From a virus: a DNA stretch of 34,200 nucleotides. Where the stretch lies: positions 1 to 34,200 of IMG/VR virus record IMGVR_UViG_3300032271_001530; one strand, given 5' to 3'. A program made the position numbers and the translations under genes. Under the pieces are notes generated by a model, which had not been told where the DNA came from, did not search any database, and saw only the letters and a list, made by a program, of their open reading frames with translations. Numbering within the stretch: position 1 is the first letter of the stretch; each line of letters opens with the position of its first letter. Of the stretch, positions 2,803 to 31,670 are shown one piece after another.

Positions 2803-2828
2803 ATTTCAGTATTTCCTAAATGTTCATG

Positions 2829-2836
2829 TATTTATT
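2829..2836 (-). promoter_or_regulatory. Putative T4-type late promoter (AATAAATA) for the left-edge fibre
   Basis: Read on the minus strand the bases are AATAAATA, seven of eight matching the T4 late consensus TATAAATA. The motif ends 26 nt before the fibre ATG at 2802, and an AGGA ribosome-binding site lies between them. It occupies the 45-bp gap between two genes. The assignment rests on motif and position only. Confidence 0.5.
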
Positions 2837-2847
2837 TCTATTTCTTA

Positions 2848-7064: not shown

Positions 7065-7733
7065 TTATCCTATGGTGCTTAAGTTGGTCAGTGTTTGTAT
7101 TCTAACCGTGTAGTCAATTTGGATTAGTCTGTTCAAACTTTTTTGAACTGGATGAAATATAACGTGGGTTAATAATTTTCCCGTGGTACTAAGTCCGCTG
7201 GATCCATCGGTACTGCGAGCTTTTAATCCTAGTTCATCAAAGGTATATGTATCATTCAGATTGGTGGTGTTGTCAAATGCTTGCTGTCCTGATGGTTCGC
7301 CATAATCCAATAAACATGATACCAAAATATCTGTGTACACTTGGCCAGGCACATGTCTAATTTCCATCTTGTTGTACAGCGGATTTAAGTTTGCAGCGGC
7401 GTTGTTGTCTACTATTTTAGCATAAGTTGGGTTGTAAAGATTTGCATTTTGTGTGTTTGTATTGGCTGGTAGATAATTGATCACACCAGTTGGGTCAATG
7501 CTGGTGCCGCCGTTGCCGAAATGCATTTCGTAGATATAACTTTGACCTTTATTGGCTAATGAATAAGCAATAGCTTCTGAAATATTTTCATAATGAATAC
7601 TATTGCGCTTGTTTACATAAACTTCAGCAGATTCTGGATCAAAAATCTTGATATGGCCTTGAACGTAAATGCCGCCCAATTCATCGTGCTGCTTATCAGG
7701 TTTTGAGTTAGACTTTTTATTGAGATCATTCAT
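7065..7733 (-). CDS. Unassigned structural protein downstream of the giant baseplate protein
   Basis: I do not recognise a named T4 counterpart for this 222-residue protein. The first ~20 residues are charged and polar (NDLNKKSNSKPDKQHDELGG). Then comes a compact beta-rich part (YVQGHIKIFDPESAEVYVNK, HYENISEAIAYSL), a middle with Asn-rich loops, and a conserved-looking end (TGKLLTHVIFHPVQKSLNRL followed by DYTVRIQTL). There is no signal peptide, membrane segment or enzyme motif. Its position between the baseplate wedge genes and the fibres suggests a small baseplate or fibre-attachment component, possibly filling the role of gp8-gp11 in T4. No ribosome-binding site lies at a normal distance; TATAAATA ends 6 nt before the ATG and CATAAATA ends 28 nt before it. 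Confidence 0.55.
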   Translation of the reverse strand: MNDLNKKSNSKPDKQHDELGGIYVQGHIKIFDPESAEVYVNKRNSIHYENISEAIAYSLANKGQSYIYEMHFGNGGTSIDPTGVINYLPANTNTQNANLYNPTYAKIVDNNAAANLNPLYNKMEIRHVPGQVYTDILVSCLLDYGEPSGQQAFDNTTNLNDTYTFDELGLKARSTDGSSGLSTTGKLLTHVIFHPVQKSLNRLIQIDYTVRIQTLTNLSTIG

Positions 7734-7770: not shown

Positions 7771-10700
7771 TCAAGTGTTGATGTTCTTTAGGTATGTGAC
7801 TTCTTTTGAAGTACTGCCTTCAAATCCTGTGCCGCTCAAGAAGCTTATGGCATTGGCGGGCAACACATGTAAGTTTGCACTGTCTTTGTACAAATAATAA
7901 TGATTTGTGACATTACTATCAAATATACCGCTGCTATTCACAAGCGTGATCACATTGCCAGTGGAATTAGCTGATACCACACCAGTTGCTCCTGTGATAG
8001 TTTGTGTGATTACGTTTCCAACATTCACAGTGACACTGGCTGTCACATACAATGTTTGATTGGCTGCTGCATTGTACCATGTATCTTTATGTGGTGTCCC
8101 TGGCAGCGGTCTGATTGTTAAATCTTGTATTACTGCTGCGTTTGAATACAGGAACTTGTTTTGTTGTGTAACATAAGCAGCTGCCAAGTGTACAGCAGGT
8201 GCGCCAGTGCCATTTACTGCTCTACGAAGTTGACCTAATCTATTGTGCACAGTATCCAATTCGTAGTAGGTAATAATTTCTCCATTGATCAGTATAGTGC
8301 CTGGTGTAGCAGTACTTGGGCTTGGAACTGATAGCAATGCAGCATTTGCTACAAATATATTTGAATCAGTGATATGTAGATTTGCTGTCAAGAACGTGCT
8401 ATGAGTAAATGTGTTGGCATCAATTTTATAATATTTTGGCCATTGCTTGCTATCAGCAGAATTGACATTAGCTCTCATGTTATGCACAACTGCATGAGCT
8501 AGATACGTGGTGTTGGCGTATATATTACTGTAGACTCGCATGACCATGGTATCATAGGTAATGCCCGGTATAAGTTCTTCAGGAGCATGACTGTTGAATG
8601 TATCATAATATGCGCCGCCAGAAACTACAATATCTTCTACTCGTGTACCAAGAACACTTTGAGTATCAGTGATGATAGCAACATTGCTGGCTGTCAATCC
8701 TGTGTCGTTGCCGTCTAATGTTAAATTAGATACAGTATTGAAAATACCGTATGTATTTGGCAAAGTAATAAAGCTGGTATTTACAACCGTTGTTCTTATC
8801 ACAGCACTTGCATCGTTGCCTATTTGTCCGAGAATGCTGCCGTATGAAGCAGTCAAATTTCCAGACAATGTAATTTCAGCAGTCCGATATCCATAATCAC
8901 TTTGAATAATACTGTCTAAAAAGATAGGATTATTTTGATCGTAGTAATTTAATGTTACGTTGGCGTTTGCTGCAATATAATCCAGTGTGCCTGTGACATA
9001 CAAATTGCCTTCTGATACTTCTTCAATCAACACTGTGTTTGTGTTTTTATCAATGTTCGTGGGCACATATGATGTTGAAAAAGATGTAAATGATGGTATC
9101 AATGATGAGAATTTAGCTGTTGTGTTGGCTGCTTGGTCATATATGTATGCATTAGCCAAGAATGTGCCAGTGATACTTACCACACTTATTAAATTACTGT
9201 TAATCGCATTGATAGCCACAACTGCTGTAGCACCAGTCACTGGCTGAGTGAGCACATTGCCACTGTTAGTGGTTATATTTGAACTCAATGCAAAAGTACC
9301 GGTATTGACGGTTCGATTGTACACAGTGATAGTACCGCCTGTGGTACTTAGGCCAGTGCTGACTGTTACTGTATTGCTTGCTGATTGAGCCAGTACCTTG
9401 ACATTTGCTGCACCTTGTTTAATATAATCTCCTGGTTTTACAATTACTGCACCACTGAGATTTACAATATTCACATCATTATTAACAACAGTGAGGTATT
9501 GGCCTCTGCTGTATTGTAAATCTACAAAGTTAATTACATTTGTATTATCACTCACAAGTCTGGTAAGATCATCCACAACCACATTAAGCGTGTTAGTAAT
9601 AGTGCCAGTATGCACAACAGTGGTGTTGGTTGTTGAGGTAAGTTCATCAAATTTCACACCCTGTACTTTAACGCCTGGATAATCAATACCGTACACTAAT
9701 TTTTTCAAGTCCTTGGTCCGCATTGTGTTATCAGGTTGATAACAAGCCCATATTCTGTCATTGGCATTATCAAAGCTTTCAGTTGGCACTCGCTGGTATT
9801 TGGTATAATCAAAAACGTTGATTATTCGCACCGGTCTTGCCAATGTATCAACGTTGTTTATTGTAATATTGCCATTTCTCTTAAAGAATGTACCGCTGAT
9901 GTTAGACACTGTGATGGTGTTATTGCTGACAACAGTGGTCGTAAGTCTTGCATTTCCAGATTGATTTATTTGACCAACATACGCACCAGCAGTGGCAGAA
10001 ATATTGCCACTGAGTTTAATTATTGCTGAACTGTAAACATCTGTTAATGCTTGATATCCAATACCTTCATAGCTCACAATAGTACCAGCTGCAACGGTTG
10101 TATTAGGCTGCCAATCTATAACTTGTGTGTTGTAACCAACTCTGTCAAATTTTAGAACAGAATCAAATGAACGAACCTTGTTATAACTCTTGTTTTCTGT
10201 CTGAGTAAAATATATCATTGGTGATGTATCACCAGTTGATATAGTTCTCATTGAGTAAAGCCCCAAATCTGTTCCGTCTCGGAATACATTTGTGTTGCTA
10301 AAGAATCTACCCTGGACTTGCCAAAGCGGCACTTTGGTCACCCAGCCGGTGACTTCTTTTTCATATACTCCAACAGCATTAGATATCACTGTGCCCGAAG
10401 CCCAAGGCATAGCAGAACCGCCAGATGATTGTGTGAGGATATTTCCTATATAGACATTGGCATTGCCACTCAACCATATTATGTCTGTAGCGAACGCAGG
10501 TCTAACTTGCAAATTGGCAAACTCTGAAAAGATCCATGAGTTGCTTTCAAATTTTCCTACAACATCAACAAGCGTGATGATACTGCTGTTTGAATTGATA
10601 TAAACTGTGCCTGATGCATTTGTGTTTGGTTGCACGATCAGATTTCCAGTATACACTGTTACCGGTCTTTCCAAAGTTAAATTGACTGTTGGAATACTTT

Positions 10701-13700
10701 CTAGATAATACTGTCCGGTGAGCACTGGATATCCAGCTGCACCAGTGCTTACGCCGTTTATCAATATTTCCGGTATGCTGGAGAAATTATATCCAGGATC
10801 TATAACTTGATATTTCTCAATAGTATTGGTATCTGCATTGATCACTGCTCTGATATTTGCACCAGTGCCACCTCCGCCGACAACAGTGACAGTTGGTTCT
10901 AGATAATAGCCATTATCAGACAGGATAGTCAGCGCACTCACAGTTGAATATGTGTTTGCGCCGTTATCATATATGTAATTGCTTGTGTCAAAAGTGCCAG
11001 TAACATTTAATAAATTGCAAATACCGTCTGCACTACTGCTGATAACGGTGCCAGTTGCAGTATTACTGCTTTGTGTTACTGTATTGCCAACTTGTAGTGT
11101 TACAGGTGGATTTAGAAACAACGATATAATAGGAGTTTGTACCCCTGCGCCACCATTTGTCACTAGTACTTCTTTTATACTATATGTGTGATTATTTTGC
11201 CATTGGCTATAAACTGATGCATTAGCTAGTTGTTCAGCATCTGTGCTTAGTGAACCATCTGGGCTATGGTATGTGCCAGTGCTGCTGTTGTAAATGCTTG
11301 GTAGGTCAAAGTCAGTTATATCACCAGCGAAATTATCATTGCCTTGATAATCAAGTACGTATTCTCGTAGACTGGTTCTGTAAGGCTTTACTTCATTTAT
11401 GTAGCTTTCATAGTAAGTTTGATTATCTCTAATATAATTTGGAAATTGCTCCAGTTTCTTTAATTGGTGAATCACACTCACAAAGCTGGTTTTGAATATC
11501 CAATCTATGTCTTTTTGTTCTGTCAACACATAGTTGATCATAAAGAAAAACATCTGATTCAGATTTTCTTGCAAACTCTTGATGAATATATCATTTAAAA
11601 TCGTATCAAAAATTATTCTGATTTCAGTAGTTGCATCAATAGTTGAATCATACAAATCTGAATTAAATTGAATGGTGCCATTTTGTATGCCTACTAGGTC
11701 TCGTGTACCTTGGTTATTGTATCGGTATACTTCAAATTGACCGCGACCATTGTTTAAAACTTTGATCGTTTTGCCTTCTTGTAACGTTGAAAACTTTAGT
11801 AGATCATTTGATGTGGCTACTACATAATCTGTTTTTACAGTATAATCATAAGTGCCGTCATACCAATCGACCTTACTCCAATAAAAAGGCACATTATAAC
11901 TTTGACTACGAATTAATGTCCAAGGACTGGTTGTGTTTCCTGAATAAGAATACAATGCCCATATGCCACGCTGATATTCATCACTGATAACTAAAACAGT
12001 ATAGCCAGCTGTTATCTTGGTCAAATCTATATAATCTAATTCAGTTTTAGTGTCAGTGGTAATATCATATAATTCATCTGACGGCAGGGGTTCACCTTGA
12101 TATAAAGGATCAATACGGAACTCTTCTATCACTGGCACAGTGATAAAAATGTTGTTGATATATTCGATCCAGTTCTTTAGCGCTAAAAATCTATCAACAA
12201 AAAATGACTGTCTGGGTCTGTTGTAAATGCCAATTTTATTTTGGAAGCTGAGAGCAGGATCGGGCACTAGATTACCATTTTTATCTACTCCCGATAAACT
12301 ATCCCGTAGTTTATCAATAAATCTTGGTGGTATTTTACTGCTGGCGCTGCCTTCTTGAATTAGTGCATATTCACTATGAATTACATTTGTATTTTTTAAT
12401 GTATCGTAGTTTATGTGCAGAATAATATTATTGGCAGTGATTTTATCAGTGATACCGTGAACGCTGATGGTGTCAGAACGAAGAACCTGTACATACGGAA
12501 TATCTTGTGCTGCAGGATTTAAAATGATTTCTTCAATTGCAGCTACACTATTACTCTTGTTACTATCCTGTTCTATTGTGGTTTTTCCCCTAACCCAGAA
12601 ATAATAATGACTGCGAACTGTTTTACTGACTTCATCAACATAGCTTTCCACTACGTAGGCAGTATTATTTGGATATTTGGCAGTACCTGATCCTTTATAG
12701 CTGCTCGGTGGCAAGTCGCTGACAACCCATTCATAAACTTCAACCGCACTGCCGGGGAATAGTTCACCCCAAGTTGCTTGGCGGTAAATCAAACTACCTT
12801 GTTCATAATCAATATAACGCATGGCAGCTAGATTCCACCAAATTTTTCCAACTTGATTCATTCCCCACGGACTGTTTACGTTTACTGACAGTTCATTTGC
12901 TGCTTCATCAGTTGAACCAGCAGAATTATAAATAGCTGGATCATAGGGTGTTCGATAGTCTATGTCTTGATCAGCAATACCCAGTACACGACCTTTGGCT
13001 GGATCAATATGATCCAGGCGAGCAAGAACTTTGTTGTTGGTCTTGTCATAGATATAGAAGTTGGTGATGCTGCGTGTATCAACCCTAGGTTCTTGAGTAT
13101 GAATAATATCCCAGCCAACGTTACCTGAAAAATCATTATAAACATAATATGTGCCTGTGCGTGGCACTGCAGTCAGTAATCCGCTTACAGAATCTGCAAT
13201 AATCTTGTTGCCTGAATCATTTTGAGCACCCACAAGCAATGTATGATCATTCATAGCCAGACTACTGCCAAACAAATCATTGTTCTGTAGATTATTATTT
13301 TGCAATCTTTGCACCAGCACATACTGATCTGCTGCTGGTCCAGCCAAATCACCGCCAACTAAACCGTATACATACACTGAACCTGAACCATAAATGCTAT
13401 CTAGGAAATTTGTGCTGTCTTGATCAAAAGTAGTGATATTTTGATCCAATGCCATGGTATTGTAGGTTGTACCTCCAGTAGCGCCAATAATTAATTTTCT
13501 TGAATCATAACTGCTGAGTACGTGTGCACCAAAATTATCAACCTGATCATTTACAGGATGTCTGAATGTTTGTGCCGATTGATAAACATTAAGTCCTAAA
13601 TCTCTCAAAGCCGTGCCATTACCTGGACCAACAATTAATTTTTGATATGCGGTTACTACATTGCTTGAAATAGTTAGAATGCCTACGTCAGAAACTGAAG

Positions 13701-16700
13701 CAGTAACACCAGCTATGCCAGCAGTGTTGATATTTGCTGCAACATTGGCAACGTCTGTTTGCCAGAATTTAACTATTTGTCCATTGAGTCTAATACTATC
13801 TCCGATAGCAACAGTTGGTGAATACTTGCTGCTGCTAATAGCACCGTAGGCAGCACCCTCATTGACAAATCTATAAACAATGCCGCTGTAATAACCTATT
13901 TCGCTGAAACCTGGGCTTGATACAAATATATCAGCATCATTGCCACTTATGTGGGAAGTGATTCCAAATACAGCACCACTGGTAGGATTATCTGCTGTAA
14001 TTCTTTCCATAAATTGAAATTTGCTGGTTTCAACATTGATCTTGCTGCCTATTGTTGGAGCAGAAGTAAACGTGATCACGTTACCAGACACAGTATAATC
14101 AGTGGTGATTTGCTTGTACGTGCTATCTATTGTTACTCTTACAAATCGAGGATCAATGGTATTCAAAGTTGCATAACTTTGACTAGTATTAGCAATGAAT
14201 GTTTCAATACTTCTATCATACACATAAACTGCACCAGCCGAGCTAATGCCGTTTACTGTTTCATAAGGTGCACTAATAATAGTCTGGCTAGCATCACTGG
14301 TTGTCTTGATAGTATAACCAAACTTAGAAGCACTGCTGTTTGATATTGTGTTTGCATATGTATACTGTGTTATTGGACCAACAGTTGGATCTGCAGATTG
14401 AAGTGTATTAGCATAAAATACTTCCACATTTCCTTTATTTGGTGCACCTACAAACAGCCATCTGCCGTCGGTGCTGGCACTTATGCTTTGACCAAAAGCA
14501 TCGCCGACGTTTGGACTCCAGTGACTGCTGATTTGTTGTAGTTTAGTAAATGAAGAATTTGCTGCCCAATACAAATAAACAAACACATTTCCAGATTGTG
14601 TGGAGCCATCTCCAGGAGCGCCTATGTATAATATATTGCCTGAGCTATCTAGACTTGCGCCAAAATTACTCACACCACTGTTCTGAGAAGATATATTAGC
14701 TACTAAGGTAAAGGTATTGCCGTTGGTTATATTTGATACAAAAGTCATCACTCTGCCATTGTTGGCCGCGGGCATGCCAGCTGCTGCGAATGTGCCGCTT
14801 TGATTTATAGTGGTAACTGAACCAAATCCACTGTCTGTAACATAATCGTTGGCAGACATTTTCATGTTGGCATTAAAATCACTGACATTTGCTGTCCAGG
14901 GTTCGGTCTTGTTATAAACAGCCCAGGTACCTGTGTTGGTATCATTGTCAACCCATAATTTATCGCTGTTCATCCACCCACGAATCGGTGTAATAGAATT
15001 TAAATCAGTTGCAGTTTTAACGCGACTGCTGATGAACTTAAATATTGAGCCTTTGCCAGTTATAGTCTGCAAATTCTTGATAGTAGTAGCTATTGCTAAT
15101 GTAACGATGTTAAATCTAGTTGGACTTTCGACGCTGTAAACTTGATACACGCCATCAACTCGCGGATCGAATCCTTTAATTACAACTAAATCACCGTATA
15201 CCACTGATATTTTTTTGTCAGTGGTTACAGTTGAAATATTATCCACACTGTATGACAAAGAAACCACACTGCCTTCAGTCTCAGTAAGGCGATAAACGTT
15301 CCAATCATTATTAAAATCTTTGGCACACCATATTTTATATCCTATGCCCATTGAATTGATTTTTGTCGAAAGACTAGAATAATTGGCAATGTCATAAATG
15401 GTAGTATCTACGTCATTTACATTGACATATCCAGCAGTATGAATATCATTTTCATAAATGCTGTGGTCATCACGATTTAAAAAGATATTTGCTTCATATC
15501 CTGTACCTGTACGATATAAATCAGCAGGTTTTATGCCAATTATTTGATCTACTGAAGAACCATTGTTTGGCAACAATGTTATTAACAATGGATCACTGCT
15601 GTATTGACCTTCAACTAGTTGTATTTCAACAAACTTATTATTTTCTAGTGCGCCATATTCACCAACACGAACTGCCCAATCTTCGTATAAATTAACAGTG
15701 CTGGTAACTCCATTGAATCCAGCTGCTGTAAACGCATTTATTGCATTTATTGTGCCTTTTTCTTTAATGAATCCTTGATAAAACTTGGCTTGAATAGACC
15801 TGTCAATGCCAAAATCAGTCATGTATTGTCGTTCTTGAAAGCCAATCACTCTGTCCGAGAACTCATCAAATCCTCCTTCAGTAGAAGGATTGTCTAGATC
15901 AAAAAACTGATTAAATTTGCTTGCATTGTATGAAAAGTTAGGCAACAAACCTGTTTTAATTTCACTAGTAGGTATTTGTCTCCATTGTCCAGGAACAAAA
16001 TCTAGAGTAGCAACAATGTCTGATAATGCAGCATAATAGAAATTTTTGTAGGATACCAACGCACCTTTTTTATAATCTACTCCGGACTGCCAGTTTGGCA
16101 CCGATGGGCTGTTATAGATAAAACCACCAGGGTTTAATACTCCAGTCCAGCCGCCAGTTTTGCTGCCGATTAACTTCATTCTATATTGTCTATTACCTAA
16201 CTCTGGCTTATAAATGATGTCATTGAATACAGTAGTATTATCAAATATCATTACATGCTCATATTCAACTACATCCAATACCGCCAGTGCAATAGTTTGC
16301 GTGAAGTTAGCAGTCAATTTGAAAACATTACCGTCTCTGAGTACAGTAAACTGATTGTTTTTTATGAAATTAAAGTTAGTATCAAGTACTCGACTTGCAC
16401 CCGGAGCGTTCTCCACATTATCAACTATACCTTGTGTATTGTTTACACGAATAATATTGAGTATTGGGCTTAAAATTATCACGCTGCCTATTGGCCAACC
16501 TTGTTGACTCCAGCTTAGAAACTCTTTGCTGCTTAAAACAAAATCACGCTGTTCAGTTAAATCAGAATCATAATCTGTAAATTGTATGCCTGATCCCGTG
16601 AGATATCTGCCATAACTTACCAAAAAATCGACCAATTGTTGTTTATTGGAAAATTCAAATCCATAAGGAACAACCACTTTGTATTTTTGATATTCTTTAT

Positions 16701-19700
16701 AAATCACTGCTCGTTCATTTTGAACACTTATAGCATAAGAATTGTTATTTGCTAAGCTCGGTATAATAGTAAAATAAGGATTGTCTACGTCGTAGCCGCT
16801 GACAGTATATCCATTTTCACTTTTTTCAACTATTACTGCGCTGTAAATAATGGTCTTTGTTGGAGTAGATTTATTGATTTGTATTGTGTAGTTTTCATTT
16901 GGTATCACAACTCCCTGATTGGTACTGGTTGGACTGCTTTGTTCAGCAATTACTTCAATCATTGTTGAGTCTGTGTAACTAGCCATTTTATAGGCAAGTT
17001 GTACTGATACGTATTGCAAATAACTATTGATTTTAGTTATTGGATCTATGCCGTTGTATCTTAGATAATCAGATATCCAATTCAAGTAACCTGCAGCCCG
17101 TTTAATAACAGCACTGGTAGTATCGCCGTTCAAATTAACAGTAGTAGTTGGTGATACTCTCTGAAGATTAGTAGTTAGAATATATTGATCTAGATCAGTA
17201 TTTTTATAGTATTCGCCAATGTTCATCAATGTGCCAAAATAAAACGCAGGGAAAGACAATGCTAATGCTTGTTGCATAGCATATGGAAAATCACTGCTGC
17301 GACGCCAAGCTGTTTCAACTGGTCCTTGGTTTCCAACAGCATAACTTGCATTGGTATGACTACTGTCAATGCCAGCAACTGCAAATTCATTGGGGGGTCT
17401 TAATAAACCGTGATCATCGACCGGAATAATTTTACTCAATCCCGGACGAGCAAATCTGCTGTCATAGCCAGCGCGGCTGCCGGAGTATACATAACCTTTT
17501 TCTAAGTCGTCCCATAATACCCGATTACCGCCTGTGTATGGAGCTGAGCCATATCTATCTGCCCACCAATCAGGTTGTTCTGAGAATCCCAACATTTCCC
17601 ATGGATGAGTGTGTGGTCTTGCTGTATCATAAAAATAATCAAATATAGCTCGCCAAGCGCCGGGTAATTGTTCTGAGTCAATACTATCTTTGTAATATCT
17701 GTAATTCCAAGTAAATGGATTGCTAGCTTGAAAATAACTGTTGGTTGTAAAATCTACTCTGTTGGCACCTGCCCATTTAAGAAAACTACGAGTCAGTATC
17801 TGATTAAATTCAGTGATGCTGTATTTTGAATCACGAAATTTACCTGGTATATGATCGTATATGTCAAAAACATTAGTCGCATAATTGATCTTGATATTAT
17901 TATAAATTCTTTTTTCAAATTCTAATAATAAATCGTCTCGTATATCACCAAAAGCAGGCGTAATACTGCCGTCGTGTCCTTGAATTACATACACTGGTTC
18001 TTGGTAAGTATCATCCAGATACTTCTCAGGCATAAATTTGGGGTATAACCCTAACTTAGTTGGTGTTTCAGGTATATAATTTCCGTCTGTGTTAGTATAT
18101 TCATTTATAGTGATAATATCATCTACATTCAACAAGTACGAATTGTTTATTGTCACACCAGCTCGATTAATGTCAAAAACATAATCTATACCTTTGGTAA
18201 GCTGCACGTTGTTCACATAAACTAAAACTGCTTGATTGCTCAATGCAGTATCATCAAAAATATTGCTTATTTCATAATCTCTGATTTCTGCGTCCAAAAC
18301 AGTGTAGGTGATAGTATTTTTAATTTCACCATAGGGAATCATGTCACTGTAGTACCAAGGAAATGCTTTGTTTTTTACTTGGTTGATATTCTTGAGAATT
18401 TGATCACATACGCCGGGAATATCAGTCAAATCAACAGAATCTGATAACAAATAAACTGATTCTAAGTACTTGTTTTTGATTTTTTGATATTCATGTCGAG
18501 CTAAGTCTAAACTTTTTATTAAATTTGCATTTGAATCTACCAGAAACAATTCGCTATAAAGCAAAGGACTAGCATGCTGTACGATACTGCCTCCTTGTTT
18601 CTTAATTGGTACATCTCTGAGATTACTATCGCCTGGTAAAGTTCCGATAATTCTAGTTGTATTTTCATACAGTGCGCTAAGATGATTGCGCATTTGTCCA
18701 AGCGTCAGACTAGTAAAATTTTTATTTTCTGTATTCAGATCTAAATTCTTGGGTATCTCATAGTAACCAATTTGACTTACGTCAGTGCTATAAATTCTTA
18801 TGTCTATTCTATCGCCCAGCGTCAACGATGTATCATCAACTCTAATATAAATGTTTACACCAATCGTCTCTTGTGTATACAAAGAAGAATTCAGCAACTT
18901 ACTGTTTTTATAAACTCTTAAATGAGGTACAGTTTTATCTTGTATAGCAGGCGTGATATCAATCAAAAAATATTTGTTTGAACCATCATAAATGTTACTG
19001 ATAATTTGAAACTGCTGTGATGGTTCTACTTCAGTAGTCCACATGTTTTTGATCGTGTAATTTGTTAGATCAGAATTGAATCTCATAAACCCAACAAAAT
19101 TTATATTTTTCGTAACCGTCGTATTAGATACAGTATCCAGATAGGAAAATGTATCGTTGTCAAAATTATTCAAAAACTGAATGTCGCCGATTTGATTAAA
19201 ATTTCTATAGCTCAGAGGAAATCCAAGTATAGAATCATTTGCGCCTGTGCCAGGAGCGTAACTGAAAACTTTAGTACCGACAAATGTGCTGCCGGCATAC
19301 ACATCTGTATTTGATAAGCTATATCCATTTTTGTCTATTGCATCAAAAAGTGGTGATTGATTCAAAGAGGACTTGGCCTGACACGGCAACCAATTTGCAC
19401 CATCAAAATAATATTCAACACCAGTGATAACGGTATCATCAGTAATAACTCCATCAACTGCAATCAAATTATTGTACGGTAACACTTCTGCATCAGATGC
19501 GAGTTGCAAAGTAATAACATATTTGCCATTGACATAAGAATATTTCACTACATAAATCTTGTTTTTTACGGTTGAGTCGATATCATTGCCAAATATTATT
19601 CTTTGGCCGTCTTTAAGAGTTATGCCGTGAGAAAGTGTGACCAATTCTTGAAGTTCAATGCCATTGAACGCATCTGTAAAATTACTTGTCAAAAGCAATA

Positions 19701-21600
19701 TATTGACCGGTGCCTTGGCTTTTCTGCCAAAGTTCCATAATTGAATATCATAATCAAACTCGATAATTGGTCTATTAGACCTTAGATTTTGATCTAATAA
19801 AAGTGTGGAGTTATTATAAGCAGCAGTTTGTTTAATAACGTCAATGTGAAACCATCGATTACTTCTACTCCAAGGATTTAGGTCCTGACTGCCTCTGTTA
19901 ATTGTGATATAGTCTTTTTCTGAACCAAATCCTTCAGGACTAATAAAATCATTGGTATCTAACAATCTTATAGCAGTACCAACGCCTTCTACATAATAAG
20001 TGTTGCCAACATATTGACTCGGTATAACTCCGGTAGAAAATCTTACTTTTAATCCATTAGTGAATTCTACTCCGTTAGGACTCTTGTAAGTTGTCTTGCC
20101 AATTATTTTTCTTACATCTATAACGTTATCAATAGATTCAGAAAGTGCAATCTCACCTTGATATTGAGTTTCTATGCCGTCTTGGTAATAAAGAATGGGC
20201 AATGGTGCAGTTATATGAGGAACTAATTCAAAAAAATCAGTATCTTTATCTCTATAGTAAGTCAGCTGTCCGCGCGCACTGCCGTTTCTGACAAACACTC
20301 GTTGATTTGCCAATACTTGTACGTCTGGTATTAGTCTGATAATTGGATCGCCGGGATCTCCGATCAAAGTAATTTTCCATAGGCTTCTTCTCTGACTATT
20401 TGGAACTGTAGGATATGATGAATAGTTATATTCAGTAAACAATATCGAAATACCAATAGTTAAAAATAATCCTATTGGTTGATTTAATGTTATTTGATTT
20501 CCTGAAATGTTGGTTATTCTGATATCAGAGCCAAGCAACTGTTCATCACTTAGATACATGCCTACTTTTAACCCAGCTGCATTATCTATAGTAATAACAG
20601 TATCTGTAGAGGTAGTTGATACCGTTAATTGATGTGTCACTGATTCAGCATATGTTTCAGAATCATACAAATCATTGCCTGTCCAAAACACATCATCTGT
20701 GTCGTTGTTGATGAATATCAGCGTTTTACCTGCAAGATTGGTAGTTACATTGTCGAAGCCATTGAATGGTGATTTTTGTAAAACTCTAAGATTTGTGTTT
20801 TGAATATCACTGAAATGCAGTTCAGTGCTGAGATCAGCCGACGCAACCAACGGCATTTCTAAATATTTGTCTTGTTGTGTTGGCTGAGGCACGTTAAATG
20901 TGATAGTGCCATTGTCTATGCCGTTGTTTTCTACACCCAAAACATCTCGTGTACTGACATTTTTTTGATTGTTTCTATATCCTTTAGTGCCTGGATCACT
21001 TTGAATCCAGAAAGGATACCCAGGCTGATTTACTATAAATTTGTATGTACCACCGTAGCCTAAGTGCAAAGTTGGGTTCTGAGTTGTGCCTAGACCACTG
21101 AAATGATAACTGCCGGTCGATGGATCTCTTGTCACGACATATGTACGATCTTTTTCAATAGCACTACCATATACATCCACTGCATCTGGCCCGTTTTCAA
21201 GCCAGTAATACTGACTGAAATTAATAAATTTATCAAAATCAAATCTGCCGTCAAAACTATATGATTCACTGGCAAACAATCTACTATGATCGGTGGTGAT
21301 ACCTCCGTAATATTTTATCTGATTCAGTAAATCTATATAACTGCTAAAGAAATTTAAATTTTTTTCTTTATCCTTGACAACAATACTAGGTTCAAGTTGA
21401 TAGTTTGTACGTTCTGTAGTCGGCTCAGGTTGATAATTATCTGTGCTTTTGAACGTTGGTGCAAATTTTCTACCAATATAGCCATTTACTTTTCGCAAAT
21501 CAGGTTGGCTAACCAGCTGATCTAGTGTAGCATTCAAGAATTTCCTGTTTGTGTCTGTTCGGAATATCTCTGGTAAGAAATTTACTGTCTTTATCGCCAT
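7771..21600 (-). CDS. Giant (4609-residue) baseplate wedge/tail protein in the gp7 position, with FG-GAP propeller and C-terminal repeats
   Basis: One uninterrupted frame. It directly follows gene 6, where T4 encodes gp7 (about 1030 residues), so a wedge role is inferred from order. The N-terminus (NFLPEIFRTDTNRKFLNATL) and several aromatic-rich blocks look like conserved structural cores: about 1287-1405 (PGAWRAIFDYFYDTARPHTH, then WEMLGF and PDWWADRYG), 1904-1980 (FYQGFIKEKGTINAI), 2915-2975 (MRYIDYEQGSLIYRQATWGE) and 3366-3425 (NEVKPYRTSLREYVLDY). Residues ~2300-2800 hold six FG-GAP-like blades. Residues ~3500-4575 hold about eight copies of a G-x2-(I/V)-x-Q repeat. Near 4429-4484 there is a common phage beta motif (INGEIITYY then LRRAVNGTGAP). 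No catalytic motif was recognised. The start has a weak GGA 6 nt upstream and lies 10 nt after the stop of gene 6. Baseplate membership is likely; gp7 homology is not proven. Confidence 0.75.
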   Translation of the reverse strand: MAIKTVNFLPEIFRTDTNRKFLNATLDQLVSQPDLRKVNGYIGRKFAPTFKSTDNYQPEPTTERTNYQLEPSIVVKDKEKNLNFFSSYIDLLNQIKYYGGITTDHSRLFASESYSFDGRFDFDKFINFSQYYWLENGPDAVDVYGSAIEKDRTYVVTRDPSTGSYHFSGLGTTQNPTLHLGYGGTYKFIVNQPGYPFWIQSDPGTKGYRNNQKNVSTRDVLGVENNGIDNGTITFNVPQPTQQDKYLEMPLVASADLSTELHFSDIQNTNLRVLQKSPFNGFDNVTTNLAGKTLIFINNDTDDVFWTGNDLYDSETYAESVTHQLTVSTTSTDTVITIDNAAGLKVGMYLSDEQLLGSDIRITNISGNQITLNQPIGLFLTIGISILFTEYNYSSYPTVPNSQRRSLWKITLIGDPGDPIIRLIPDVQVLANQRVFVRNGSARGQLTYYRDKDTDFFELVPHITAPLPILYYQDGIETQYQGEIALSESIDNVIDVRKIIGKTTYKSPNGVEFTNGLKVRFSTGVIPSQYVGNTYYVEGVGTAIRLLDTNDFISPEGFGSEKDYITINRGSQDLNPWSRSNRWFHIDVIKQTAAYNNSTLLLDQNLRSNRPIIEFDYDIQLWNFGRKAKAPVNILLLTSNFTDAFNGIELQELVTLSHGITLKDGQRIIFGNDIDSTVKNKIYVVKYSYVNGKYVITLQLASDAEVLPYNNLIAVDGVITDDTVITGVEYYFDGANWLPCQAKSSLNQSPLFDAIDKNGYSLSNTDVYAGSTFVGTKVFSYAPGTGANDSILGFPLSYRNFNQIGDIQFLNNFDNDTFSYLDTVSNTTVTKNINFVGFMRFNSDLTNYTIKNMWTTEVEPSQQFQIISNIYDGSNKYFLIDITPAIQDKTVPHLRVYKNSKLLNSSLYTQETIGVNIYIRVDDTSLTLGDRIDIRIYSTDVSQIGYYEIPKNLDLNTENKNFTSLTLGQMRNHLSALYENTTRIIGTLPGDSNLRDVPIKKQGGSIVQHASPLLYSELFLVDSNANLIKSLDLARHEYQKIKNKYLESVYLLSDSVDLTDIPGVCDQILKNINQVKNKAFPWYYSDMIPYGEIKNTITYTVLDAEIRDYEISNIFDDTALSNQAVLVYVNNVQLTKGIDYVFDINRAGVTINNSYLLNVDDIITINEYTNTDGNYIPETPTKLGLYPKFMPEKYLDDTYQEPVYVIQGHDGSITPAFGDIRDDLLLEFEKRIYNNIKINYATNVFDIYDHIPGKFRDSKYSITEFNQILTRSFLKWAGANRVDFTTNSYFQASNPFTWNYRYYKDSIDSEQLPGAWRAIFDYFYDTARPHTHPWEMLGFSEQPDWWADRYGSAPYTGGNRVLWDDLEKGYVYSGSRAGYDSRFARPGLSKIIPVDDHGLLRPPNEFAVAGIDSSHTNASYAVGNQGPVETAWRRSSDFPYAMQQALALSFPAFYFGTLMNIGEYYKNTDLDQYILTTNLQRVSPTTTVNLNGDTTSAVIKRAAGYLNWISDYLRYNGIDPITKINSYLQYVSVQLAYKMASYTDSTMIEVIAEQSSPTSTNQGVVIPNENYTIQINKSTPTKTIIYSAVIVEKSENGYTVSGYDVDNPYFTIIPSLANNNSYAISVQNERAVIYKEYQKYKVVVPYGFEFSNKQQLVDFLVSYGRYLTGSGIQFTDYDSDLTEQRDFVLSSKEFLSWSQQGWPIGSVIILSPILNIIRVNNTQGIVDNVENAPGASRVLDTNFNFIKNNQFTVLRDGNVFKLTANFTQTIALAVLDVVEYEHVMIFDNTTVFNDIIYKPELGNRQYRMKLIGSKTGGWTGVLNPGGFIYNSPSVPNWQSGVDYKKGALVSYKNFYYAALSDIVATLDFVPGQWRQIPTSEIKTGLLPNFSYNASKFNQFFDLDNPSTEGGFDEFSDRVIGFQERQYMTDFGIDRSIQAKFYQGFIKEKGTINAINAFTAAGFNGVTSTVNLYEDWAVRVGEYGALENNKFVEIQLVEGQYSSDPLLITLLPNNGSSVDQIIGIKPADLYRTGTGYEANIFLNRDDHSIYENDIHTAGYVNVNDVDTTIYDIANYSSLSTKINSMGIGYKIWCAKDFNNDWNVYRLTETEGSVVSLSYSVDNISTVTTDKKISVVYGDLVVIKGFDPRVDGVYQVYSVESPTRFNIVTLAIATTIKNLQTITGKGSIFKFISSRVKTATDLNSITPIRGWMNSDKLWVDNDTNTGTWAVYNKTEPWTANVSDFNANMKMSANDYVTDSGFGSVTTINQSGTFAAAGMPAANNGRVMTFVSNITNGNTFTLVANISSQNSGVSNFGASLDSSGNILYIGAPGDGSTQSGNVFVYLYWAANSSFTKLQQISSHWSPNVGDAFGQSISASTDGRWLFVGAPNKGNVEVFYANTLQSADPTVGPITQYTYANTISNSSASKFGYTIKTTSDASQTIISAPYETVNGISSAGAVYVYDRSIETFIANTSQSYATLNTIDPRFVRVTIDSTYKQITTDYTVSGNVITFTSAPTIGSKINVETSKFQFMERITADNPTSGAVFGITSHISGNDADIFVSSPGFSEIGYYSGIVYRFVNEGAAYGAISSSKYSPTVAIGDSIRLNGQIVKFWQTDVANVAANINTAGIAGVTASVSDVGILTISSNVVTAYQKLIVGPGNGTALRDLGLNVYQSAQTFRHPVNDQVDNFGAHVLSSYDSRKLIIGATGGTTYNTMALDQNITTFDQDSTNFLDSIYGSGSVYVYGLVGGDLAGPAADQYVLVQRLQNNNLQNNDLFGSSLAMNDHTLLVGAQNDSGNKIIADSVSGLLTAVPRTGTYYVYNDFSGNVGWDIIHTQEPRVDTRSITNFYIYDKTNNKVLARLDHIDPAKGRVLGIADQDIDYRTPYDPAIYNSAGSTDEAANELSVNVNSPWGMNQVGKIWWNLAAMRYIDYEQGSLIYRQATWGELFPGSAVEVYEWVVSDLPPSSYKGSGTAKYPNNTAYVVESYVDEVSKTVRSHYYFWVRGKTTIEQDSNKSNSVAAIEEIILNPAAQDIPYVQVLRSDTISVHGITDKITANNIILHINYDTLKNTNVIHSEYALIQEGSASSKIPPRFIDKLRDSLSGVDKNGNLVPDPALSFQNKIGIYNRPRQSFFVDRFLALKNWIEYINNIFITVPVIEEFRIDPLYQGEPLPSDELYDITTDTKTELDYIDLTKITAGYTVLVISDEYQRGIWALYSYSGNTTSPWTLIRSQSYNVPFYWSKVDWYDGTYDYTVKTDYVVATSNDLLKFSTLQEGKTIKVLNNGRGQFEVYRYNNQGTRDLVGIQNGTIQFNSDLYDSTIDATTEIRIIFDTILNDIFIKSLQENLNQMFFFMINYVLTEQKDIDWIFKTSFVSVIHQLKKLEQFPNYIRDNQTYYESYINEVKPYRTSLREYVLDYQGNDNFAGDITDFDLPSIYNSSTGTYHSPDGSLSTDAEQLANASVYSQWQNNHTYSIKEVLVTNGGAGVQTPIISLFLNPPVTLQVGNTVTQSSNTATGTVISSSADGICNLLNVTGTFDTSNYIYDNGANTYSTVSALTILSDNGYYLEPTVTVVGGGGTGANIRAVINADTNTIEKYQVIDPGYNFSSIPEILINGVSTGAAGYPVLTGQYYLESIPTVNLTLERPVTVYTGNLIVQPNTNASGTVYINSNSSIITLVDVVGKFESNSWIFSEFANLQVRPAFATDIIWLSGNANVYIGNILTQSSGGSAMPWASGTVISNAVGVYEKEVTGWVTKVPLWQVQGRFFSNTNVFRDGTDLGLYSMRTISTGDTSPMIYFTQTENKSYNKVRSFDSVLKFDRVGYNTQVIDWQPNTTVAAGTIVSYEGIGYQALTDVYSSAIIKLSGNISATAGAYVGQINQSGNARLTTTVVSNNTITVSNISGTFFKRNGNITINNVDTLARPVRIINVFDYTKYQRVPTESFDNANDRIWACYQPDNTMRTKDLKKLVYGIDYPGVKVQGVKFDELTSTTNTTVVHTGTITNTLNVVVDDLTRLVSDNTNVINFVDLQYSRGQYLTVVNNDVNIVNLSGAVIVKPGDYIKQGAANVKVLAQSASNTVTVSTGLSTTGGTITVYNRTVNTGTFALSSNITTNSGNVLTQPVTGATAVVAINAINSNLISVVSITGTFLANAYIYDQAANTTAKFSSLIPSFTSFSTSYVPTNIDKNTNTVLIEEVSEGNLYVTGTLDYIAANANVTLNYYDQNNPIFLDSIIQSDYGYRTAEITLSGNLTASYGSILGQIGNDASAVIRTTVVNTSFITLPNTYGIFNTVSNLTLDGNDTGLTASNVAIITDTQSVLGTRVEDIVVSGGAYYDTFNSHAPEELIPGITYDTMVMRVYSNIYANTTYLAHAVVHNMRANVNSADSKQWPKYYKIDANTFTHSTFLTANLHITDSNIFVANAALLSVPSPSTATPGTILINGEIITYYELDTVHNRLGQLRRAVNGTGAPAVHLAAAYVTQQNKFLYSNAAVIQDLTIRPLPGTPHKDTWYNAAANQTLYVTASVTVNVGNVITQTITGATGVVSANSTGNVITLVNSSGIFDSNVTNHYYLYKDSANLHVLPANAISFLSGTGFEGSTSKEVTYLKNINT
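7890..11110 (-). repeat. C-terminal array of about eight G-x2-(I/V)-x-Q repeats in the giant protein
   Basis: I count eight related segments, starting near residues 3499, 3647, 3718, 3871, 4053, 4109, 4249 and 4523. Examples are VGNTVTQSSNTATGTVIS, TGNLIVQPNTNASGTVYI, SGNVLTQPVTGATAVVAI and VGNVITQTITGATGVVSA. Most continue with an N-x-I-x-(L/V) strand and end in (T/S)G-x-F. They are separated by unrelated beta-rich sequence of varying length. The DNA copies are diverged, so the array is old. Confidence 0.65.
13205..14685 (-). other. FG-GAP (integrin-like beta-propeller) region of the giant protein
   Basis: Six blades share an FG-x-S/T...(L/I)-x-(V/I)-(G/S)-A-P pattern: NFGASLDSSGNILYIGAPGD (~2308), AFGQSISASTDGRWLFVGAP (~2366), KFGYTIKTTSDASQTIISAP (~2424), VFGITSHISGNDADIFVSSP (~2541), NFGAHVLSSYDSRKLIIGAT (~2686) and LFGSSLAMNDHTLLVGAQND (~2774). 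Several are followed by a G-x-V-Y/F-V-Y strand. This is the signature of FG-GAP repeats, which fold as a seven-bladed propeller in integrins. A seventh blade may be too diverged to see. Confidence 0.75.
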
Positions 21601-21610
21601 ATTATTTCCA

Positions 21611-24600
21611 TCAAGGTATTACATTTGCCAAGCTTTGATTAAGCTGCGTGGCTGTTATTGCACTAATTATTTCAACATTATCGACCGTGGCTGCACTAAT
21701 AATAACTTCATCAGGTTGAGCATTGATCTGCATCAAACTACCAAAAGCTTGATTGTTAGATGAAGGTACTATAATAATACTTGCTATATTAGGAGACAAT
21801 TTATTATGTAGATACGTACTTAGTTCACTGAAATAAAATGTCTCACCAAAATCCCAATTTGCTGTATCAAAAAACGTGTTGATCGCTGATATCACACTGG
21901 TTTTAATATCATTATCACTAATTATTCCATTAGGATTCTTTACTACCTTAAATGTAGCCTGATATTCTAATCTAACTTTATTGATATCTAAACCAAACAC
22001 TGGCTTGAATTTTCCTGAGTTATAAACTAACGTATCGCTGAGTGCTTTGTAGTTTTCAAGACTGGTTGATCCTGCACCATATGCCATTTTAAGTTCTTCA
22101 TTGGTGGGTCTTGTAGGTTCACTGACTGCACCACTGGTATCTCTTATCCAAGCAATATAATCTTGTGTGTATTGTTTGGTCAAAATGTATAAATCCATGA
22201 CATTATTTGGACTAGGGTCAATTCTTCTTTCACCGGGACTGTTGTGTCGATGTTGAAAATACATGTCTTGCCTGCCTACTTCAGCCACATAACTAGTGTC
22301 TGCCGTTGCCGGAAATGTTCCGGTTGTTCCTAGTACCCAAAAAGTTTTTTCAGAGGTTGCGTAAAAAATTTGACCTGCAGCGTAAAGACTCTTGTGCGTA
22401 GAAATATCATTATAGGTAGCATAAACTGTTACAACGTTGTTGTTGTCTACGGGAACCAGAATGTCATAGCCGTCAGTGGTTAGCTGATGTTGAAAAAACA
22501 CATACTTTTTACTGGTATTCACTGTTGGAGCAACAATATTGGCAAACAGATCCGGATCATCAGGCACGCCGTCGAAATTCGAATCGGTGTATGTGATTAA
22601 AACTTTAGAATTATCAATAAAACCCGTGGTATCTATCAGATTATTGTAAATGTACCAAGTTTGATCCTGTGTCAGCGGAGATGCGCTGTCTGGCTTGTTA
22701 TTGATTTTTAATATCTTTATTTGATCATGCACAATTACTCCTTCGCGTGGATCATATGCATTAACTTTTGGATCAAAATAGAATCTGGTTTCGTCTACAC
22801 TGCCAAATACATATTGCTGAGTTCGATAAAATGCAGAATATGTTGTGCCGTTGAATCCAAAACGAACTATCCAACTTGCATCCAATGCATTTCCTGTTGT
22901 ATTTCCTGCATATGTGAGGCTAAATGTATCTGTAGGATTCAAATCCTGTGGTAAAATTATCTTCCAGGTTTGATAATCTACATCATATCTGATGCCAAAA
23001 TTCTTGTAACTTTGAATCAATTTGGTCATCTCGTCAGTGAATGTTTTTCCTGGCAGTACCGTGTTTAACACAGGAATAATTTGATCAAGAACAGCAGAAC
23101 TAGGAACTTGTGCACTGAGATTTACGCCGTTTCCTAAATTAGTAGAGGTAACTGCAGCATAGATATAAAATTTTTCGCCTTCGTATACCGGTGTGCCTGT
23201 CTGTATTTGATTCTGAGTATCAAAGTACTTGGTGCCATCAGTAGATGCTACAAATCGCAATAAAGAACCAACCGTAACATACTTTAATGCACTATCAGTA
23301 ATTTTACCGATACTTTGTGTTTGACCTCCGGACTGCAGATAACCTGAGCAAGAATTTGTGTCTACTGATATACGTGACCAAACAATATTGTTAAAGTTAC
23401 CGGGTCTGATTTTTCGTGGAAAATTTGTATAATAAAATTGTTTAATTTCCACAGTTGATAACAGCGGATTAACCACATTATAAATCACATTGTTTATATC
23501 GTTTGGTGAACTGATATTGAAATTTACACTCTTGATTGGCAAGTCTTGATAAATGAATCCATCGCTACAAAACACATTCGTGCTGGAATACTTGCCAGTA
23601 GCGTCTAAAACATCCAAAAATCTGCTTACGCCAGCACTACTACGGTTAACAGCTTTGACTTTTAATATGCTGTTAAAGTTAGTGTAAGGAAAAATATTAT
23701 AATCTTCACCTGTGATCATGCGATTCTGAGTGTAATACTGTTGCGGAGCTTTAACTCTGATATCATCAGCAACTTCACGAATGTCTGCGTTGGCTACTGT
23801 GTATTGCAAACTAGCTCTAACCGTCAACGTTTCAACACGATTATTTCGACTTACATAATTAATTGAAATCAACACACCCTGTATTTCATCAGGTGTGACT
23901 TTATAACGCTGTCCGTTGCTAACTCTGTAATACAAACGATAAACACCTTGCGGAACGTTCGCAAATGATCCATCGCCAAATACTAAATCTATTTGATCAT
24001 TTGCTCTGGTGTTTACTTGATACAAATTTCTATCTGAACTGTGGTTGTAAATTATATTAATTCCAGCCAATGCTGGAACTTGAGTCCATAATGTAGATGG
24101 GGTACCAGTGCTGTCTAATTCATATAACCAAACGTCGCTGTTGTTGATATTATCAAAATTCAAATTTACAACACGGTTTGACAAAGCTTGTGAAAGGTTA
24201 AATGATGTATTGTTTAAAGTGCCTTGCTTAAAATAAACAAAATAGCCTGTGTTAGCACTGGCATTTCCTTGATTATCATTACGATATAAAATATTGAATT
24301 TTCCAGCAGGCTTGGGTTCAGGTTCATAGATGTAACTTTGGCCGGCGGTTGTGGCACTCACAGCTTCAAAATTCATCAGACTGCCTTCAACTACTGCTTT
24401 GAACCCAAATGTCGGCACTACACCTTGAACTAGATTAATAGTATATTCATCAGTTTGAATACTGTTAATCATCTGGCTATTACTGGGTTTTCCAATTAGC
24501 TGACTGTTTACTAAGCTAGCATTTAAAATAGTAGCAAATTGTTCTTGCCAGTCTGGATTAGTCGTGTCGTTCCAGCTAATAATTAAATTGCTGAGGTCAT

Positions 24601-25003
24601 AACCATTTGAATCTGTAATACGTTCTGTGGTTGTAATGCTGTCTATCTTCAATAAGCCATTGGCTGGCATATTTCGTTTAGCATTGTAGCTGATAAGCCT
24701 AGCTAATTTTAAAACACTATCTCGACGCTCAGCAGTATCAAAGAAATTTTCGCGAGCGTTTAAGTCTGTGCGAAACGCAAGGCTTTGCCCTAAAAATGCG
24801 ATAAGATCAATAAGGGCAATATATTCACTACTTTCTGTGTAGTCATTAAAATCTTCAGGATAATATGTTCTTAGGTATTCAATCATTGACTTTCGAATAG
24901 TCTCGAAGTCATAGCTCTGAAAATCAGCTTCCTTAAAAGATTGATATACCTGTTTCCAATCCTGATTTACTAATAGGTTGGTTTGTCTTCTAGTAATAGC
25001 CAT
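21611..25003 (-). CDS. 6: Baseplate wedge protein gp6 (Baseplate_J-like)
   Basis: The N-terminus (about residues 20-125) has the gp6 pattern seen in T4-like phages: YDFETIRKSMIEYLRTYYPE, then SSEYIALIDLIAFLGQSLAF, RTDLNARENFFDTAERRDSV and LARLISYNAKR. The middle contains the Baseplate_J-like beta domains with VFGDGSFANVPQGVYRLYYR near residue 340 and ITGEDYNIFPY near 435. The C-terminal part (FKPVFGLDINKVRLEYQATF, later WDFGETFYFSELSTYLHNKL) fits the dimerising end of wedge proteins. In T4, gp6 forms the continuous ring of the inner baseplate together with gp53 and gp25. At 1130 residues this copy is clearly longer than T4 gp6 (about 660). AGGA lies 10 nt before the ATG, and a late-type motif CATAAATA lies 22 nt before it. 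gp25 is just upstream and the giant gp7-position gene begins 10 nt downstream, which is the T4-like order. Confidence 0.92.
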   Translation of the reverse strand: MAITRRQTNLLVNQDWKQVYQSFKEADFQSYDFETIRKSMIEYLRTYYPEDFNDYTESSEYIALIDLIAFLGQSLAFRTDLNARENFFDTAERRDSVLKLARLISYNAKRNMPANGLLKIDSITTTERITDSNGYDLSNLIISWNDTTNPDWQEQFATILNASLVNSQLIGKPSNSQMINSIQTDEYTINLVQGVVPTFGFKAVVEGSLMNFEAVSATTAGQSYIYEPEPKPAGKFNILYRNDNQGNASANTGYFVYFKQGTLNNTSFNLSQALSNRVVNLNFDNINNSDVWLYELDSTGTPSTLWTQVPALAGINIIYNHSSDRNLYQVNTRANDQIDLVFGDGSFANVPQGVYRLYYRVSNGQRYKVTPDEIQGVLISINYVSRNNRVETLTVRASLQYTVANADIREVADDIRVKAPQQYYTQNRMITGEDYNIFPYTNFNSILKVKAVNRSSAGVSRFLDVLDATGKYSSTNVFCSDGFIYQDLPIKSVNFNISSPNDINNVIYNVVNPLLSTVEIKQFYYTNFPRKIRPGNFNNIVWSRISVDTNSCSGYLQSGGQTQSIGKITDSALKYVTVGSLLRFVASTDGTKYFDTQNQIQTGTPVYEGEKFYIYAAVTSTNLGNGVNLSAQVPSSAVLDQIIPVLNTVLPGKTFTDEMTKLIQSYKNFGIRYDVDYQTWKIILPQDLNPTDTFSLTYAGNTTGNALDASWIVRFGFNGTTYSAFYRTQQYVFGSVDETRFYFDPKVNAYDPREGVIVHDQIKILKINNKPDSASPLTQDQTWYIYNNLIDTTGFIDNSKVLITYTDSNFDGVPDDPDLFANIVAPTVNTSKKYVFFQHQLTTDGYDILVPVDNNNVVTVYATYNDISTHKSLYAAGQIFYATSEKTFWVLGTTGTFPATADTSYVAEVGRQDMYFQHRHNSPGERRIDPSPNNVMDLYILTKQYTQDYIAWIRDTSGAVSEPTRPTNEELKMAYGAGSTSLENYKALSDTLVYNSGKFKPVFGLDINKVRLEYQATFKVVKNPNGIISDNDIKTSVISAINTFFDTANWDFGETFYFSELSTYLHNKLSPNIASIIIVPSSNNQAFGSLMQINAQPDEVIISAATVDNVEIISAITATQLNQSLANVIP

Positions 25004-25052: not shown

Positions 25053-25442
25053 TTATTGGGAAACTGAAAATACTTTGGTGGTACCTGGTGAATTTTTATC
25101 AAACTGTAACATAAGAGTTTCTACTTGATTTGTAGCTCGATAGACCAATGTTATCATGATTTGAATACCGTATTGCTGCTCAGTGATATCAAATTGCGTT
25201 ACACCCAACCGAGGATCATAATTTATTATTTGCTTGATATCATCAATGATGGACTGTCGCAAAGTTTCAGTAAATGGCTCAAACAAACTACTCCAAATCA
25301 TGGTACCAAAATCAGGCTGCATTACTCTCTCACCTTTTTTGGTGTTAAGATAATTTATAAGATCTTGTTTAGCAAGTTCAAAGTCTGTTACTCTAAACTT
25401 TTTAACTCGATTGTATGTTGAAAAACCGTTGTATATAGTCAT
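25053..25442 (-). CDS. 25: Baseplate wedge protein gp25 (GPW/gp25 lysozyme-like family)
   Basis: This 129-residue protein is close to the T4 gp25 length (132). It has the family core: DFELAKQDLINYLNTKKGER followed by VMQPDFGTMIWSSLFEP (residues ~22-58), an acidic helix (LRQSIIDDIKQIINYDPRLG), and the end strands (YGIQIMITLVYRATNQVETL). The R-V-M-x-P-x-F-G-T and F-E-P elements are the family hallmark. gp25 links gp6 and gp53 in the inner wedge and primes sheath assembly. It lies 9 nt after gene 5. No ribosome-binding site is visible; AATAAATA ends 6 nt before the ATG, so it may be expressed from a leaderless late message or by coupling to gene 5. Confidence 0.93.
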   Translation of the reverse strand: MTIYNGFSTYNRVKKFRVTDFELAKQDLINYLNTKKGERVMQPDFGTMIWSSLFEPFTETLRQSIIDDIKQIINYDPRLGVTQFDITEQQYGIQIMITLVYRATNQVETLMLQFDKNSPGTTKVFSVSQ

Positions 25443-25448
25443 AGATAT

Positions 25449-25456
25449 TATTTATT
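25449..25456 (-). promoter_or_regulatory. 25: Possible late promoter (AATAAATA) abutting gp25 start
   Basis: The minus strand reads AATAAATA across the stop of gene 5, ending 6 nt before the gp25 ATG. The spacing equals that of the exact TATAAATA before the gene at 7733. AT-rich stop-codon sequence could produce this by chance. Confidence 0.35.
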
Positions 25457-31367: not shown

Positions 31368-31670
31368 TCAGATACCTAAGTCTGAAACAAGATTTTGTTT
31401 TTTAGGAATATAGATGCTAGTGCCGTTACGAAAATCAAAAACTGGATCATCGATGGTATTAGGATTTCTTTCACGGAATACCCACCATAATGCAGCGTCA
31501 CCGTACAAGTCAAATGCTAGCAAATCTGGTCTAAATTCATACATCTTATCAATAGTGTATAGAACATCATCTGAATATTTTGTAATAGGTCTATAAGTCA
31601 ATATATCTAAAAAACTGCCAAAGGTACCAGTTTTATAATATGGGCTGACCTTACTGTATTGAACGGTCAT
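31368..31670 (-). CDS. 53: Baseplate wedge protein gp53
   Basis: This 100-residue protein is shorter than T4 gp53 (196) but keeps the LysM-like core. The residues YRPITKYSDDVLYTIDKMYE, FRPDLLAFDLYGDAALWWVF and RERNPNTIDDPVFDF run through the middle, followed by NGTSIYIPKKQNL, the usual LysM ending where the IYIP strand sits. gp53 clamps the inner wedge ring to the hub. Its ATG overlaps the stop of the tail-tube cap gene by one base (TGATG), and a strong AGGAGGA sits 8 nt upstream inside that gene. Confidence 0.85.
   Translation of the reverse strand: MTVQYSKVSPYYKTGTFGSFLDILTYRPITKYSDDVLYTIDKMYEFRPDLLAFDLYGDAALWWVFRERNPNTIDDPVFDFRNGTSIYIPKKQNLVSDLGI

Follow-up and report, generated by a model that had tools for sequence, protein, structure and literature searches.

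The giant ORF and its locus

The product of the 4609-aa ORF at 7771-21600 is probably the wedge scaffold that corresponds to gp7 in a contractile jumbo phage of the RaK2/PA5oct type. In T4-like phages, the tail-baseplate scaffold gene (gp7) is found at this gene position, and the giant gene follows directly after gp25 and gp6, in the gp7 slot of the tail operon. The gp7 identity is supported mainly by synteny, plus a weak profile match that is unique within the chain.

The window analysed was the entire virus record of 34.2 kb (34,200 bases). The giant ORF is on the minus strand and is open from ATG to stop, and stops were present throughout the plus strand across the same interval. It covers 13,830 of the 34,200 bases (40%) and is 4.5 times as long as T4 gp7 (1032 aa). 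A frame of this length is not a product of chance, and it is also conserved. An earlier note on this DNA had described an intact frame over 13.8 kb, more than four times the length of T4 gp7, taking up 40% of the window and lying in the gp7 position; each of these points was borne out, the first also by many full-length relatives.

The genes on the minus strand are ordered as follows: a 304-aa virion protein, gp53, an 874-aa virion protein, a gp5-like hub, gp25, gp6 and the giant ORF, which is followed by a conserved protein of 222 aa and by three proteins of tail-fibre-like or surface type. A late sigma factor gene (gp55) and an SbcD-like (gp47-type) gene are divergently oriented on the other strand. 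The main features of the locus are:

31368..31670, minus strand: gp53 homologue (phrog_7145, PF11246)
25452..28721, minus strand: gp5-like hub with an OB domain and peptidoglycan-hydrolase domains
25053..25442, minus strand: gp25 homologue (PF04965, 4e-13, and PHROGs)
21611..25003, minus strand: 1130-aa homologue of gp6, the expected partner in the wedge, matching phrog_10646 and phrog_219 (baseplate wedge subunit)
7771..21600, minus strand: 4609-aa ORF, phrog_10938, proposed gp7-equivalent baseplate wedge scaffold
7065..7733, minus strand: 222-aa conserved downstream neighbour, phrog_11259

Two other proteins of the window had distinctive domain contents. In the gp5-like hub (1089 aa), the OB domain was accompanied by two stretches matching hub/lysozyme families and by a C-terminal VanY/endolysin-type peptidase, and the hub is thus rich in cell-wall-cutting domains. 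The 1005-aa protein encoded at 2848-5865 (minus strand), with DUF1573/HYDIN-type Ig-like repeats and a C-terminal glycine-rich domain, is likely to be a fibre or decoration protein.

Relatives of the giant protein

In PHROGs, the giant ORF matched phrog_10938, annotated "virion structural protein", with 1144 bits in four stretches over most of its conserved body. By tblastn, matches to the giant protein were obtained in 60 phage records at 26-31% identity, and those listed included RaK2/PA5oct-type jumbo phages and their relatives. The homologues in isolates were 25-30% identical to it, and their sizes were 4555 aa in Phosso, 3857 aa in PA5oct, 4449 aa in Atu_ph07, 3807 aa in SCTP-2, 3326 aa in RaK2, 3771 aa in Vibrio 2.275.O and 3341 aa in GAP32. 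All seven were situated at the same locus. The order gp25, gp6, giant protein and a protein of ~200 aa was kept in Phosso, PA5oct, Atu_ph07 and Vibrio 2.275.O, and the order gp25, gp6 and giant protein was kept in RaK2 and GAP32. Among these proteins, RaK2 ORF070, PA5oct gp355, Atu_ph07 gp180, GAP32_230 and SCTP-2 gene 140 were homologous over the conserved body, belonged to the same size class and were mostly annotated as virion structural protein; the record of the PA5oct homologue also carries a virion ESI-MS/MS annotation. The protein studied here differs from these five in a rare insert at ~330-420 and a longer repeat-rich C-terminal arm, and it has a propeller of ~600 aa that is missing from RaK2 and GAP32.

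At least 587 IMG/VR stretches code for relatives of the giant protein. Among the matches listed, 50 complete environmental relatives were recovered, the nearest of which was 76% identical across 4612 aa. Since these 50 relatives span 3508-6307 aa, a length of 4609 aa is ordinary for this phage group. RaK2-group jumbo phages carry the giant protein as a rule; the finding is less unusual than first supposed, and the present protein is a new sequence within an already catalogued giant-protein family.

This recurrence also bears on the idea that an assembly chimera or a missed stop has fused several genes into one frame, whose probability we consider negligible. In one relative (L047, 1-8243), the homologue is split into two ORFs by a frame change, probably a sequencing or assembly error, and single-base errors may therefore occur in such contigs. 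However, the gene is uninterrupted in the 50 full-length environmental relatives as well as in several isolate genomes, which refutes a fusion artefact.

In SCTP-2 (L004, 8609-17899), the gp6 slot, just before the gene of the giant protein, holds a gene whose product is itself 3096 aa long, and no BLAST similarity was observed between this product and the gp6, gp25 or giant protein of the window.

Conserved body and variable modules

A family alignment was made of 58 homologues. Residues 1 to ~3450 form a conserved body, except for the variable insert at ~300-420, which was found in few relatives. The earlier note's description of the chain, with a body, a propeller and a repeat-bearing tail, agreed with what was observed: the body reaches ~3450, the propeller lies at ~2230-2840 and the tail repeats number seven. 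The parts of the chain are:

21181..21600, minus strand: highly conserved N-terminal block, residues 1-140 (LPExF..., YQLEP, NFxQYYW)
17311..18063, minus strand: residues 1180-1430, a block with some of the strongest conservation in the family (GHDGS, PWEMLGF)
15976..16113, minus strand: CBM5/12-like (chitin-binding-fold) module, residues ~1830-1875, by profile match to CBM5/12 structures
15631..15948, minus strand: candidate gp7-type core, residues 1885-1990, in which FYQGFIKEKGTINAINAF aligns with gp7 FYxSKGTxxSIxxLF
13081..14913, minus strand: FG-GAP-type beta-propeller, residues ~2230-2840, by FG-GAP/integrin alpha propeller matches
11251..13083, minus strand: second conserved half of the body, residues 2840-3450, ending in a helical block (3345-3430, EVKPYRT)
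7774..11250, minus strand: variable C-terminal arm, residues 3451-4609, with repeats, CBM5/12-like and ING-E-ITY modules

Of the large parts of the body, only the propeller is optional. Six FG...GAP-like blade motifs were recognised in it, five by pattern and the sixth, FGASLDSSGNILYIGAP, by eye; the corresponding region comprised 83-292 residues in RaK2, GAP32, Vibrio 2.275.O, PA5oct and one other relative (L029), as compared to ~710. The CBM5/12-like module at ~1830-1875 gave a VIA match of 45 residues to phage Milano 8fqc_P1 (Z 7.0, rmsd 1.1). Within the C-terminal ~1160 residues, there were seven copies of a ~47-residue repeat, which was absent from 46 of the 58 relatives, a second CBM5/12-like module at 3830-3853, and an ING-E-ITY module (4361-4480) that is common to cyanophage gp7 (93% probability). 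A YHYH domain occurred in some relatives, and by BLAST the P-SSM2 gp7 has one too. Accessory modules such as the propeller, the CBM5/12 modules and the tail repeats thus vary between relatives.

Five relatives (L045, L057, L072, L081 and L083) had lengths of 6145-6307 aa. In four of them the extra length lay at ~500-1000 and in the propeller region, and in L083 it was a C-terminal arm of 2600 aa.

Sequence evidence for a candidate gp7-type core

No significant match to the T4 gp7 profiles (phrog_964, PF21427, PF21428 and PF21456) was detected in the giant protein. When 14 segments of the chain were compared by hhalign with T4 gp6-gp12 and gp53, no segment gave a match; a likeness to T4 gp7, gp8 and gp10, for which the earlier note had pointed to segment comparison, was accordingly not observed. 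In the PDB sequence search, neither the whole protein nor its N-terminal 300 residues retrieved a wedge protein, and a profile of residues 1677-3459 had significant matches to integrin propellers only, with CBM5/12 matches being weaker.

Cyanophage gp7 cores, which themselves match T4 gp7 at 95%, were used as a bridge. A diverse gp7-core profile, comprising T4, cyanophages and a Stenotrophomonas phage, was compared with 209 windows of the giant protein, and the six windows over ~1921-1968 ranked 1-6. Their scores were 24.7-28.5, as compared to 15.0 for the next window, a mean of 10.6 for the 209 windows and a best score of 17.5 for the 209 windows of the reversed sequence. The probability of the match was 26-52%, which is below conventional certainty, and a second, separate alignment of the motif gave 37% with a P of 4e-4. 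In the aligned piece, KFYQGFIKEKGTINAINAFTAAGF of the family is placed against the gp7 motif FYxSKGTxxSIxxLFKxLY. The gp7-core-like motif at ~1921-1968 is thus unique in the chain but weak, and we regard it as suggestive. T4 gp7, which occupies the same slot after gp6, has an internal core motif, FYSTKGIEASYKFLF, resembling KFYQGFIKEKGTINAINAF; whole-protein profile similarity between the two proteins was not detectable. A KGT-containing helix of P2 gpI (176 aa), FIHCHKGTIGAI, looked similar by eye, and the best raw score of P2 gpI among the 58 relatives fell on the motif in RaK2. The similarity was not significant, and P2 gpI was rejected as a single-sequence bridge because it was too weak.

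A plain HMMER search of 18 related genomes or contigs revealed no further gp7-like gene, although it detected the T4 and P-SSM2 controls. HMMER was blind to the motif in the giant proteins too, so that a similarly diverged small gp7 could be missed.

The giant protein might alternatively be an adhesin or whisker-like virion protein that merely adjoins gp6, the true gp7 lying unrecognised elsewhere. It has a propeller, CBM5/12-like modules and repeats, as surface-binding proteins typically do, and the T4 gp7 profile found no match in it. However, the location after gp6 is fixed across distant phages, a core is kept in 58 of 58 members despite the irregular occurrence of the adhesin-like modules, and the chain holds a gp7-core-like motif and is the only gp7 candidate found in the related genomes searched. 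We therefore consider a non-wedge protein quite improbable.

Two parts of the chain were modelled with AlphaFold. The equivalent of residues 1677-3459 in a relative lacking the propeller (L029, 1640-2830) gave a pLDDT of 78 and a pTM of 0.52, and residues 1872-2140 of the window's protein gave 69 and 0.31. Searches of both models against the PDB with Foldseek and VIA returned no wedge protein and no gp7, gp8 or gp10; with the first model too large and the second too weak, this outcome speaks neither for nor against a gp7 fold. The matches were to isolated domains only, among them a stalk beta-barrel common to phage endosialidases and a CBM5/12 fold, and the matches in BFVD were mostly to the same giant-protein family.

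Peripheral baseplate proteins

The earlier note had proposed that gp7 is merged here with gp8-gp11, so that one polypeptide per wedge would supply the whole baseplate periphery. Its gp7 part is consistent with the slot, the weak motif and the lack of another candidate; the merger itself is not supported by the profile comparisons, and we judge it unlikely. Some observations are in its favour, since ~2500 residues of the conserved body lie beyond a minimal gp7 core, and neither T4-type gp8 (PF09215), searched for in 18 related genomes or contigs, nor the T4-type gp9/gp10 N-domains (PF07880), searched for in 8 of them, could be detected, although the T4 control was. PA5oct, however, has a separate protein with the gp10 C-terminal domain (Gp10_C). 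Profile-profile comparison of the 14 segments also showed none resembling T4 gp8, gp9, gp10, gp11 or gp12; a 12% hit to gp10 at ~1137-1175 was discarded as being within the noise of the segment comparisons. The note had further held that separate gp7 and gp8 genes elsewhere would speak against its reading. None was found in the 18 related genomes or contigs, but the cyanophage P-SSM2 has a separate gp8 alongside a gp7 of 5195 aa, and giant size alone is therefore no sign of a merger.

Peripheral roles could also be taken by the 222-aa neighbour and other downstream virion genes. The phrog_11259 gene was present in the loci of 47 of the 50 complete relatives, at times 1-3 kb further downstream, and the record of its PA5oct counterpart carries a virion mass-spectrometry note. 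The 222-aa protein had no match to T4 gp8 and was rejected as a hidden gp8; it may be a baseplate component that has escaped recognition. Since T4-type gp8 and gp9/gp10 were undetected in the genomes searched for them, they may have been replaced by unrelated domains of the giant chain, or by other genes. In a broader reading, the outer baseplate that T4 builds from gp8, gp9, gp10 and gp11 would have given way in RaK2-group jumbo phages to a single very long gp7 chain in each wedge, whose gp7 core is small and buried and whose surface-binding modules can be exchanged. This reading is speculative and in our view rather doubtful.

Proposed arrangement of the wedge scaffold and comparison with cyanophages

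For the giant protein as a gp7-equivalent wedge scaffold, we infer a virion position and domain roles as follows. A small gp7-type core (~1885-1990) would pair with gp6 and gp25 in each of six wedges, and the long conserved beta-rich flanks (1-1880 and 2000-3450) would form outward baseplate arms. The propeller, the carbohydrate-binding-like modules and the repeat-rich C-terminal arm may be lineage-variable rim decorations for fibre docking or contact with the cell surface, and it is these variable modules that are likely to be turned towards the host. Together with the candidate core, the family alignment provides a concrete hypothesis for the point at which the chain plugs into the wedge. 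A discussion of the giant protein as gp7 was not found in PMC6102473, PMC6892783, PMC3622015 or PMC10253068, and the buried gp7 core is a hypothesis for which we found no earlier statement.

Giant gp7 proteins are also known from cyanophages, with 5195 aa in P-SSM2, 7124 aa in P-SSM7, 7022 aa in S-MbCM6 and 6198 aa in S-ShM2; S-CRM01 has 1454 aa, and the size of the gp7-locus gene in cyanophages is thus elastic, from 1454 to 7124 aa. Some of the giants are annotated as baseplate wedge subunit or initiator. Like the protein studied here, they are huge modular chains in the slot after gp6 with an ING-E-ITY module, and they have the YHYH module in common with some of its relatives. However, end-to-end similarity is lacking, and the cyanophage core lies near the N terminus (somewhat further in for P-SSM7 and S-ShM2), in contrast to the internal candidate core of the present chain. 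At the gp7 locus, a length of 3300-7100 residues is standard for the proteins of two abundant groups, the RaK2-type jumbo phages and the marine T4-like cyanophages, and as far as we found, these proteins are structurally unstudied. Three cyanophage genes with a gp7 core (L208, L207 and L214), encoding 6198-7124 aa, exceed the window's protein in size and are annotated as structural protein only.
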